A DNA stretch of 64,000 nucleotides from Sphingobium wenxiniae (GTDB lineage Bacteria; Pseudomonadota; Alphaproteobacteria; Sphingomonadales; Sphingomonadaceae). Positions 1 through 3,220 of this stretch are shown in pieces. The notes under the pieces were generated by a model, which did no database searches, was not told where the DNA came from, and saw only the letters and a program-made list of their open reading frames with translations. Position numbers and translations under genes: made by a program. The stretch lies in NCBI RefSeq assembly GCF_007830065.1, contig NZ_VLKK01000001.1, forward strand, positions 1-64,000, in the 5' to 3' direction. The first letter of the stretch is position 1, and the number at the start of each line of letters is the position of its first letter.

Positions 1-345
1 CAGGACCGCTGCTCTGGCAAGCGCGGAGTTTACCACCTTGCGCCTGCGGCTGCTCAAGGTCGCTGCGCGCGTCGTAGAAAGTGCTAGCCGCATCCGCATT
101 GCCTTCGCTTCCGCCTGTCCGGATGCCGACCTGTTCCGCGCCCTCGTTCTCCGGCTGAAGCCTGCGCCGACGTAGCCCATGCGGCAGCGCCGCAGAACTC
201 CGAGCCCAGCCCTTCAACCCGAAAAGCCCATCAATCCGAATGCGGTGAAACAAACGCCAGCGATGCCGGTCGTCCGCGCAATACAGCCAGCCGCAGCAAA
301 TGCCCAGAGCGGACCCGAAACCGAGCGTCGTGAATAAGAGAGGCT
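1..345 (+). mobile_element. Right end of an IS1380-family insertion sequence (partial)
   Basis: The first 175 bases encode the last residues of an IS1380-type transposase. The next roughly 165 bases are non-coding and end where reverse-transcriptase coding sequence begins (in-frame SFDFLGYKF from base 346). The IS is therefore inserted inside drt3a. Its left end lies outside the window, so the terminal inverted repeat and target duplication cannot be paired. The junction is placed only approximately, between about 334 and 348: an in-frame TGA at 331-333 shows that the reading frame is IS sequence up to there. Confidence 0.7.
2..175 (+). CDS. IS1380-family DDE transposase, C-terminal fragment cut by the window edge
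   Basis: Frame 2 is open from the first base to TAG at 173-175 and gives 57 residues. They include LRLRLLKVAARVVESASRIR followed by IAFASACPDADLFRALVLRL. The pattern L..KVAARVVE...RIRI..ASACPDA.LFR is the usual end of IS1380-family transposases in alphaproteobacteria, which act by DDE cut-and-paste transposition. The start and catalytic core are upstream of the window, so whether the element is intact is unknown. Family assignment is by recognised motif, not by a search. Confidence 0.75.
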   Translation, partial: RTAALASAEFTTLRLRLLKVAARVVESASRIRIAFASACPDADLFRALVLRLKPAPT

Positions 346-873
346 AGCTTCGATTTTCTCGGCTATAAGTTTACTGCAGAACAGCGGGTTAACCGCGAGA
401 AACCGCGAAAGGTCTGGCTAGCAATAGCCGAGCGGAAGACGCGCCTTATGAAAACGCGCATCTATTTGTCCCTTAAGACTTTCATGAAGGACGGTGACGG
501 AGCGATGCTAGTGGATCGACTTCGTGTTCTAACAAGCAACTATCGAATCAATCGACGCGGCATAAATGCAATACGACGATCGAGATACATCTACGCGGGA
601 ATTTATTACAATTATTGGCGCTGCGGTGAATATATCGATGGAAAGCACTATCCATCGGCACCTGCGAGCCTGCGTGAAATCGATAATTTCTTGCATGGTC
701 ATATGAAGTCAAGGGGTAGTAAATTTAAGACCACGCTCGAGCTTCGCCTGGCACCGGTACAGCGACGGGTGATCGACAGTCTATCGTTCGAGCGCGGCTT
801 TGCGGGGCGCAGAATGGTGCGTGTGCCTTTCTCGCGATTCTCAAAACTAAAGGCGATTTGGCGCAATGTCTGA
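346..873 (+). pseudogene. drt3a: Drt3a (UG3-type antiviral reverse transcriptase), 5'-truncated by the IS
   Basis: This is a C-terminal fragment of a defence reverse transcriptase. The frame is open from 334 and begins with RT motif E (SFDFLGYKF), then a thumb region. It carries RKVWLAIAERKTRLMKTRIY, RLRVLTSNY, AGIYYNY and a terminal SFERGF...FSRFSKLKAIWRN, which match the end of Drt3a as I remember it. Palm motifs A to D, including the catalytic aspartates, are missing, replaced by IS sequence. The first usable start is ATG 448, giving 141 residues that cannot be catalytic. The stop overlaps the drt3b start by 8 bp, so the pair was translationally coupled. An alternative is some other UG-group RT, but the partner gene argues for DRT3. 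Confidence 0.8.
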
Positions 874-2800
874 CGCTTCACGATCACTTCTGGCACGAAG
901 TCTGCTGACAGACACGCTGCCGTACGAGGTCCCTGTCATATTCTCCAACGATAAGCTGCACTCGGCTTTGTCCGCGACAATGCCTTCCCAGGTCGCGAGG
1001 TTGTGGGAAAAGATGCGTTCGGGTCGCAAAGACTACACCATTCCCTACAACTACGAGATTGCCAAGGACGATAATCGGACTACGACCCTCAGTATAGTTC
1101 ATCCACGCATACAGGAAGAGATGGCGGCGTTTTACGAGGCACATAACTCCAGCCTCTTGAGCCACTGCGCCGATGGACGAATTTCACTTAGGCGACCGGT
1201 TAACCTTGCTTCCCCGTATGTCTCTAGTCAGACCGTTGATGTGGAAGGACGACTCCGTCTTGGTGTCGCGCAAATTCTCGTAGATGAGGAGCAGCCGGAC
1301 GTTTCTCACCTCCCGTCTTATTTCGCGTACGGGAAATACAATCTGTTGGGTAAGTTCATCGGATCGCGCGAGTTCATCAGGTTGGAAGGACGCTACCTGC
1401 GATACCGCACGCTCGATATTTCAAAATGCTTCTATAATATTTACTCTCATACGGTTAACTGGGCTGTTAAAGACAAGCTGCTCGCAAAAGAATTTAAATC
1501 TGCGTACTCATTTGAAGCGCAGTTTGATAAGCTTATGCAGCGCGCAAATTACAATGAAACGAATGGAATAGTTGTTGGTCCAGAATTTTCACGGGTGTTT
1601 GCAGAGATTATACTGCAACGCGTGGATCAAAAAGTTATAGATAAACTTGCGGTTGATGGATTGGTATTTAATAAAGACTATGAAATTCGACGGTATGTGG
1701 ACGATTTTTTTGTATTCTCGAATGCGACTGAAACTCTTGATAAGGTCGAAAACGAGATTCGCGCCCAACTTGAGTTCTACAAACTTTATGTGAACGAGAA
1801 GAAGGTCGAAACATTCACTCGCCCGTTCGTTTCAAAGCTCTCTTTGGCTAGGCAGGAAGTCGGAAGCCTGCTGCGCAACGTCCGGTCAGCCTTGCATGAT
1901 CTGCGCAAGTCGGCAGACCCGAAAGACGCTCGCAGACATCATAGGCACTTGAAGGCCTTGATGGGCGAAATCCGATTGGTGGTTTCCAAGCATGAGATCG
2001 CCTTTGCAAACATTAGCGGCTGGGTAATGTCGCGGTTGAAACGGTTGAGCCGCGTAGCGATGAGTTCAATGAAGGGGGAACTACCTGAAGGCATGCAGGC
2101 GCTGATCGGCGATGTTGTTGTCACGATTGTGGAACAGATGTTCTACATCTGCGCGATCGATACGCGGGTACGCTCGACATATTCGATCGCACAGCTCTGC
2201 TTATCGCTGCGCGAGAATATGTCGCTGTTTTCTGAGGAGCAGCAGGATCTCATTGCACATGTAATTATGGACCAGTGTCTTGCCATCCTTCGCGCCACGC
2301 GATCACGGGAAGGAGAAAGGTTTGGGCGCCGAGATTCGGTGGAGGTCTTCAATCTGCTTATTGTCGGTGCATTGTTCGTCGGTCCAGAATTCATGCGCTC
2401 CAGCGAGGTGCAAGAGGTTCTGCGTGCATTCTATGATAACGAGCGCATCTCTTATTTTGCGTTCATAACGCTCAAGTTTTGCTACCTTCGGGACGTATCT
2501 CGCTTCAGTTCGGAACTGGCAGCGATCAACGATCTGGTCGAAGCCCGAATCACTGCTTCTTCTGTGGATTTCATGAGGGACACCGAGGAGTATCTCCTTC
2601 TGAATGAATGGATATCGTCTCCGGATCTCTCTGCACCTAAAAAGCGCGATGTTCTAAACCTGATTTTTGGCGCTGAGTTGTTCGGTAAGAATGCCACACA
2701 GGAACTTGGTAGATGGACGGGCTTCGTCGACTGGAGTGGCCTTAGCGTCTATCACCTCCTTGCGAAAAAGGAGTTGCGCCCTGTCTATGCCTGGGGTTAG
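866..2800 (+). CDS. drt3b: Drt3b, UG8-type antiviral reverse transcriptase of a DRT3 system
   Basis: A 644-residue reverse transcriptase of the unknown-group/DRT class. RT motifs are in order: motif A LDISKCFYNIYSH (D184), motif B TNGIVVGPEFSRVFAEIIL (about 233-251), motif C RRYVDDFFVF with catalytic D279 and D280, and motif D LEFYKLYVNEKKVE (about 302-315). The N-terminus (LLTDTLPYEVPVIFSND, then YTIPYNYEI) and the long helical C-terminal extension after about 340 match Drt3b from memory. There is no maturase, HNH or protease domain, so group II introns and retroviral elements do not fit. In known DRT3 systems Drt3a, Drt3b and an ncRNA together block phage. Here the partner is truncated, so Drt3b is intact but probably an orphan. 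Codon use is AT-richer than downstream genes, suggesting acquisition. Confidence 0.9.
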   Translation: MSDASRSLLARSLLTDTLPYEVPVIFSNDKLHSALSATMPSQVARLWEKMRSGRKDYTIPYNYEIAKDDNRTTTLSIVHPRIQEEMAAFYEAHNSSLLSHCADGRISLRRPVNLASPYVSSQTVDVEGRLRLGVAQILVDEEQPDVSHLPSYFAYGKYNLLGKFIGSREFIRLEGRYLRYRTLDISKCFYNIYSHTVNWAVKDKLLAKEFKSAYSFEAQFDKLMQRANYNETNGIVVGPEFSRVFAEIILQRVDQKVIDKLAVDGLVFNKDYEIRRYVDDFFVFSNATETLDKVENEIRAQLEFYKLYVNEKKVETFTRPFVSKLSLARQEVGSLLRNVRSALHDLRKSADPKDARRHHRHLKALMGEIRLVVSKHEIAFANISGWVMSRLKRLSRVAMSSMKGELPEGMQALIGDVVVTIVEQMFYICAIDTRVRSTYSIAQLCLSLRENMSLFSEEQQDLIAHVIMDQCLAILRATRSREGERFGRRDSVEVFNLLIVGALFVGPEFMRSSEVQEVLRAFYDNERISYFAFITLKFCYLRDVSRFSSELAAINDLVEARITASSVDFMRDTEEYLLLNEWISSPDLSAPKKRDVLNLIFGAELFGKNATQELGRWTGFVDWSGLSVYHLLAKKELRPVYAWG

Positions 2801-3136
2801 CTCCGTAGGTCGGCATTCCCGCCAGCATCAGTTCGTCTGATGACAACGCACTTGGTTTTTTGCATCCCTGGGATGCGTTGGAGGCCTCGTTCGGGCCGCA
2901 AGGCACACACGTCGCGGGGGTGTCGACACATTGCTGTTCCGCGCGTCTCAAAGGCTTTCGGCTAGGTAATAGCGTGAGAGATGCCGATTACTTATCCCTG
3001 TGGAAGCCACGGGCATTGCATAGCCTGAATCGACCACTCCCGCGCGGCAAGTCGTTATTGCGGTGCTTATCCGGTACCAATCCCAGGCGTACGTGAACGA
3101 ACGCCGATTGAATCGGATTAAGCTCTTGTTTTTAGT
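2801..3136 (+). ncRNA. Candidate DRT3-associated structured ncRNA
   Basis: This stretch of about 340 bases holds no convincing gene but many perfect complementary arms: CATCAG/CTGATG (2826-2831 with 2837-2842); CAACGCA/TGCGTTG (2844-2850 with 2874-2880) competing with GCATCC/GGATGC (2862-2867 with 2871-2876); the palindrome GTGTCGACAC (2920-2929); a long-range CCGCGCG/CGCGCGG (2939-2945 with 3041-3047) enclosing TCTCA/TGAGA (2946-2950 with 2975-2979) and GCTA/TAGC (2961-2964 with 2970-2973); and CCGAT/ATCGG near 3104-3116 before a T-rich run at 3127-3133. An ACACAC tract lies at 2905-2910. DRT3 systems carry an ncRNA and, as I recall, it contains a conserved ACACAC template. Ends and identity are inferred. 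Confidence 0.5.
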
Positions 3137-3144
3137 GAATAAAA

Positions 3145-3220
3145 TGGTGAGCCCTGCTGGGTTCGAACCAGCGACCTACTGATTAAAAGTCAGTTGCTCT
3201 ACCGACTGAGCTAAGGGCCC
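3145..3220 (-). tRNA. tRNA-Lys (anticodon TTT)
   Basis: The minus strand folds as a canonical tRNA: acceptor GGGCCCT paired with AGGGCTC, D-arm AGCTCAGTCGGTAGAGC, anticodon stem CTGA with loop CTTTTAA (anticodon TTT), and T-arm with GGTTCGAACCC. A CCA end is encoded (complement of 3145-3147). The 3' end faces the defence genes, the side at which site-specific integrases usually insert DNA. No second copy of the 3' end is visible in the window. Confidence 0.97.

Follow-up and report, generated by a model that had tools for sequence, protein, structure and literature searches.

Our analysis places the ncRNA of a DRT3 antiviral operon, with high confidence on the basis of sequence comparison and structure modelling, at positions 2805-2934 of the window, that is, of the whole 64-kb stretch of DNA analysed here. 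The original prediction had assigned the structured stretch 3' of drt3b to this ncRNA, and the identity is supported by comparative loci, by a covariance-model match and by the layout of EcoDRT3 as given in PMC13174585; its further proposal, that an ACACAC in this RNA is the template from which Drt3a makes GT-repeat DNA, agrees with EcoDRT3 as described there. This is a known kind of system, DRT3, in a new branch. The location of the RNA, its predicted structure, the covariation among three relatives and the conservation of ACACAC come from our own comparisons; template use, products and defence are taken from what PMC13174585 states for EcoDRT3, and by analogy the same events would be expected in the branch of the window. 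The analysis gives base-level positions for the template RNA of an alphaproteobacterial DRT3 branch, names its stems and supplies two relatives with uninterrupted operons for testing.

The gene upstream of the RNA, drt3b (866-2800, plus strand), is uninterrupted and encodes 644 aa (PADLOC Drt3b, 1.9e-170). In an alignment to PDB 26cz and 9z6y, the residues of EcoDRT3b involved in specificity and priming, E22, R241 and Y666, correspond to E21, R243 and Y641 of the window Drt3b. At the position of EcoDRT3b R71, a reported contributor to nucleotide preference, the window protein has T73, with an Arg two residues before it, and a Thr is also found at the equivalent position in the Drt3b proteins of loci L009 and L020. 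The next recognised gene 3' of drt3b is a tRNA-Lys on the minus strand (3145-3220), and no recognised gene lies between it and the end of drt3b at 2800, in agreement with the gene-free stretch described originally.

Immediately past drt3b, the core of about 130 nt (2805-2934, plus strand, as are all elements of the RNA) is predicted to fold so that an outer stem, P1, encloses three hairpins and an exposed ACACAC (minimum-energy fold of 2801-2936; z -2.36, 2/200). The 5' strand of P1 (2809-2822) starts at the ninth nucleotide past the drt3b stop and pairs with its 3' strand (2914-2927) in a 14-bp helix that includes G-U pairs, a helix of at least 14 bp being reached by 1.3% of 300 shuffles; the predicted fold extends it by 2805-2808/2931-2934. 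Inside P1 lie hairpin SL1 (2826-2842, CATCAG/CTGATG), hairpin SL2 (2847-2893), which is predicted in the window fold and unconserved in sequence, and a GNRA mini-hairpin (2895-2904, GCC-GCAA-GGC) immediately 5' of the putative Drt3a template. This template, the ACACAC at 2905-2910, is present as originally noted, has no second copy anywhere in the 64-kb window, whichever strand is read, and has a predicted unpaired probability of 0.92. Sequence comparison of the window with two same-branch relatives, L077 and L009, shows that 25 consecutive nucleotides (2892-2916) are the same in all three.

These relatives, genome G1205 (L077) and Sphingomonas azotifigens NBRC 15497 (L009), carry uninterrupted drt3a operons, and their Drt3b proteins are 79% and 65% identical to that of the window, respectively. 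The RNA core is common to all three, and downstream of P1 the relatives show no resemblance to the window. When pairs of P1, SL1 and the GNRA hairpin were counted in the three sequences, 98.6% of cells were paired and 5/23 pairs had changed on both sides (2/6 in SL1), while sliding the partners cut the paired cells to 32-49%. Pairing was kept through two-sided changes in both P1 and SL1, and one P1 pair was lost in L077. Having only three sequences limits the shuffle test of covariation, in which column shuffles reached the covariation score in 15/500 cases and the number of pair types in 129/500. SL2 could not be aligned column by column and was therefore excluded from the count, and a MAFFT alignment of the window with L009 over 350 nt, which was poor 3' of P1, was left unused for these counts. 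A covariance model, R1, was made from L077 and L009, using a structure drawn by hand after viewing all three sequences; its match to the window, at 2800-2937, scored 75.4 bits (E=1.4e-16), and the next best match had E=2.2. The stretch from P1 to the template block (2823-2890) has no detectable resemblance in sequence to that of L009 (24% of shuffles as good), so support for the core in that part is structural and comes from SL1 only. Searching Rfam 15 at gathering thresholds gave no match in the region.

The case is built on this comparative evidence and not on the number of stems. Perfect stems had been put forward originally as evidence, but their count offers little: there are five 7-bp inverted repeats against 3.5 expected, four perfect 6-bp stems with loops of up to 30 nt against 2.4, and fifteen perfect 5-bp stems with the same loop limit against 9.2, with 12% of shuffles holding as many; none of these is a clear excess. 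P1 itself is invisible to a list of perfect stems, since its helix contains G-U pairs. The 7-bp pair 2939-2945/3041-3047 singled out in the original prediction does exist; it falls outside the core, is unconserved and is not above chance. An ncRNA extending over all of 2801-3136 had also been envisaged, a stretch that folds moderately better than its shuffles (z -2.27, 2/100), yet the supported part shrinks to the core, and 2935-3136 shows no conservation. Comparison with other drt3b loci, suggested there as a check, recovered the ACACAC and an enclosing pairing downstream of the gene, and left the 7-bp long-range pair and the 3' part unconserved.

Across DRT3 loci in general, ACACAC starts at most 264 nt past the drt3b stop in 28/29 genome or plasmid loci, a set in which the window is counted and L078 has the same sequence as L009; elsewhere in 39 of the genome, plasmid and viral-contig loci, the motif occurs in 48/1746 windows of 264 nt (2.7%). 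The single miss, L007, has a truncated drt3b. This locus (G008:C1:1378163-1379128), from a genome of the same genus, has a drt3b open frame of 369 aa and no ACACAC downstream. In viral contigs, a single-protein query and the exact 21-nt pattern gave no match, and an alignment query gave 33 matches, with ACACAC within 264 nt in 20/33; these 20 are every one with an intact Drt3b end. Three further viral-contig loci in which the frame is broken (L046, L050 and L053) have ACACAC 225-243 nt beyond the protein match. Ten more distant RTs (L055-L064) showed ACACAC within 264 nt in 0/9 loci having downstream sequence, L058 being the locus without any; in L060 the motif lies at 377 nt. L055 and L056, two of the ten, have no ACACAC downstream; they score weakly (196 and 190 bits) along most of the Drt3b profile and are possible Drt3b proteins. 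At one plasmid locus, L027 (E. coli CP083496.1), drt3b is annotated as two hypothetical proteins, and the same region occurs in nine E. coli chromosomes at 92.6-100% identity, where it carries the drt3a/drt3b annotation.

Pairing was assessed in 44 dereplicated loci, namely those having ACACAC, so that its presence in 44/44 follows from selection and the unselected counts are the 28/29 and 20/33 given above. Left out were L007 (from 23 loci) and L046, L050, L053 and L055-L064 (from the 33); L039, L043 and L054 were removed by script as near-duplicates, L078 was omitted when five new loci joined, and L014, L030, L031 and L080 are duplicate copies of loci already included. With matched P1 strands compared against swapped partners, the 44 loci gave z -13.0, with 0/20,000 permutations as good. 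The 28 loci whose template lies at least 90 nt from the stop reached z -12.6, and the 16 with a nearer template were weaker in 50-nt segments (z -2.0, 575/20,000 as good), with z -4.0 and 1/20,000 when shorter strands, chosen post hoc, were used. The own partner ranked best of all in 17/28 far loci and 2/16 near loci. The template was predicted to be less paired than with shuffled flanks in 35/39 loci (mean 0.80 vs 0.65). The template is preceded, at a distance of no more than 6 nt, by a GNRA hairpin in 12/44 loci against 0.64 expected, a count that does not stand for 12 independent events because the 44 loci still include related branches; in two of the 12, L024 and L033, the stems are weak.

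Model R1, run with default filters on 57 other loci, including the ten distant RT matches, found no ncRNA (best E=1.8, in the wrong place), so the argument for homology across branches is one of common position and layout and not of sequence. This suggests a layout rule for cases in which sequence models fail: an ACACAC just 5' of a strand that pairs with the bases past the drt3b stop. On a broader reading, which we put forward tentatively and hold somewhat less probable than its opposite, divergent DRT3 ncRNAs from Pseudomonadota and Bacteroidota, with Drt3b identities going down to about 26-30%, would share one layout (stop, P1 5' strand, at least one hairpin, ACACAC, P1 3' strand); the GNRA mini-hairpin would be a physical stop that resets Drt3a in a subset including the solved 9z6y-like system; and the window strain would be a case of natural disruption of drt3a, with Drt3b and the RNA persisting beyond the loss of Drt3a.

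The apparent interruption of drt3a went unmentioned in the original prediction. The contig start falls inside an insertion sequence, whose end (1-343, plus strand; transposase C-terminus PF13701, Pfam DDE_Tnp_1_4 1e-14) appears to interrupt the gene and which presumably belongs to the family IS1380. It is followed by the 3' part of drt3a (344-873, plus strand), which encodes the C-terminal approximately 175 aa and overlaps the start of drt3b; the 5' part lies on another contig (G000:C45:142-873, minus strand), where it stops against the opposite end of the insertion sequence, both parts being recognised by PADLOC Drt3a models. CTAG flanks the insertion sequence on both sides, and L009 and L077 are continuous at the insertion point, at about codon 253 of the L077 Drt3a; we infer that contigs C45 and C1 are adjacent. 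Among the 40 of 59 candidates that were scored, the insertion-sequence end of the window has at least 19 matches in the genome, itself included; 18 of them are 100% identical, and some are partial. For the end on contig C45 there are 17 matches, 16 of them at 100%. No uninterrupted drt3a was found in this assembly. The predicted effect of the cut is a Drt3a lacking 170-180 residues at its C-terminus, which would leave the template without an intact reader in this assembly, and with Drt3a apparently broken, function in this strain is doubtful.

An exact copy of the 3' part of the tRNA-Lys gene (47 bp; 3144-3190, minus strand) stands at G000:C3:159396-159442; the repeat is a probable attachment site, and its two copies probably mark the ends of a prophage-like element. 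Genes for an integrase and a Prim-Pol protein lie close to the C3 copy, and a phage terminase large subunit (L065:4728-6089; Terminase_3, 3.8e-08) is encoded on C45, upstream of the drt3a 5' part. Pieced together from these separate contigs, the picture is of an element that insertion sequences have broken up, with the DRT3 operon probably as cargo at its far end. At L074:6211-10511 the Prim-Pol frame is directly followed by three ORFs that, by eye, resemble an IS66-type transposon.

Because of the interrupted drt3a, the ncRNA and drt3b may be decaying in this strain as functionless remnants, a reading that we consider somewhat probable. The insertion sequence with CTAG on either side and its transposase match speak for it, as does the statement in PMC13174585 that defence requires both RT active sites. 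The loss would nevertheless be recent, since neither the two drt3a parts nor drt3b nor the RNA core has any other stop or break; PMC13174585 also reports that the DRT3b product is lowered, not abolished, by DRT3a mutation; and the break itself is deduced from two contig ends in a draft assembly. This reading is compatible with the assignment of 2805-2934 to the DRT3 ncRNA, as it concerns the strain and not the identity of the RNA.

A longer RNA covering all of 2801-3136, in which 2939-2945/3041-3047 would close a second structured domain (2932-3060) and 3066-3133 would form a terminator hairpin, appears unlikely to us. A long-range closing helix does occur in the minimum-energy folds of the window (2932-3066 and 2932-3081) and of L009 (4712-4861), although these folds are not clearly beyond shuffles (z -0.63 and -1.13 for the window, -1.81 for L009) and 7-bp pairs of this kind are expected by chance. 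The long hairpin at 3066-3133 (plus strand), which is followed by a T-rich tract and could mark the transcript end, folds well (3066-3136, z -2.88) and was not called by terminator scans. These scans found no terminator-like site within 400 nt past the template in 24/39 loci (the window, L009 and 22 others), a result in favour of the longer RNA; against it, the locus of the EcoDRT3 Drt3b, L032, has a terminator-like hairpin that starts 19 nt past its template. In sequence, the 3' region resembles neither L009, for which 25-50% of shuffles score as well, nor the closer L077, for which 24% do. A conserved 3' domain was considered as a candidate and rejected, as folding, local alignment and terminator scans gave no support for conservation.

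Two other readings are very improbable. A small protein gene, with the structure arising by chance, could be sought in either of two existing ORFs, one at 2860-3096 (78 aa) and one antisense at 2742-2951, and the former frame is open in L077, inside a 445-aa mechanical ORF that overlaps an ORF on the opposite strand; yet conservation tracks base pairing, with changes on both sides, a stop in L009 closes the frame just beyond the conserved block (by eye), and the minus strand of the core carries no fold signal (z 0.16). That the region is an ordinary 3' untranslated region or terminator with a chance ACACAC would suit its position at the operon end and a thermodynamic signal that is modest by itself, but it is hardly credible given the uniqueness of ACACAC in 64 kb, its recurrence at genome and plasmid loci far above the 2.7% of other windows, the surrounding run of 25 nucleotides that three sequences share unchanged and the R1 match to the window.

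Returning to the DRT3 ncRNA as the preferred reading, the RNA would probably be part of the 3' end of a joint transcript of drt3a and drt3b and would form a closed junction, with P1 around three hairpins and the single-stranded ACACAC held between the GNRA mini-hairpin and the 3' strand of P1. In a working system, by analogy with EcoDRT3, Drt3a would copy ACACAC repeatedly into (TG)n, with the GNRA mini-hairpin perhaps marking the 5' edge of the template; Drt3b would need no template and would build (CA)n onto a tyrosine at its own C-terminus; and the (TG)n and (CA)n strands would then anneal.

According to PMC13174585, the ncRNA of EcoDRT3 sits 3' of the DRT3b gene, and DRT3a synthesises poly(dTdG) from the ACACAC within it. 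DRT3b needs no template for poly(dCdA), a synthesis for which Y666 is the primer and E22 and R241 act as the gate; 26CZ is given there as the EcoDRT3b structure. Among our loci, L032 and L043 encode almost the same Drt3b proteins as PDB 26cz and 9z6y, with full-length matches of 1493 bits over 667 residues and 1338 bits over 650 residues, respectively. A literature search joining DRT3 with Sphingomonas found no paper.

Like the window, the EcoDRT3 locus (L032) has its ncRNA downstream of drt3b, with ACACAC unpaired beside a stem-loop, flanks predicted to pair as P1 and three hairpins within; we propose the GNRA mini-hairpin at 2895-2904 as the counterpart of its template-adjacent stem-loop. 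The two differ in loop sequences and hairpin shapes, R1 does not find L032, and the Drt3b proteins are 32% identical in the best segment. Furthermore, drt3a appears interrupted in the window, unlike in EcoDRT3, and the terminator-like hairpin of L032 comes soon after P1, unlike in the window; the L032 RNA folds no better than its shuffles (z -0.03). The L043 locus, whose Drt3b is that of PDB 9z6y/9z6z, resembles the window in its predicted P1 and exposed ACACAC and in a 3-bp GNRA mini-hairpin right 5' of the template (GCA-GAAA-TGC, compared with GCC-GCAA-GGC in the window), although R1 does not find it either and its Drt3b belongs to a separate branch (26% identical in the best segment). The GNRA mini-hairpin is a concrete candidate for the template boundary inferred in the EcoDRT3 work. 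Beyond DRT3, the ncRNAs of DRT9 and DRT10, which are different systems and are likened here by the published description in PMC13174585, share with it an RNA template, a tandem-repeat cDNA and a Class 2 UG RT.
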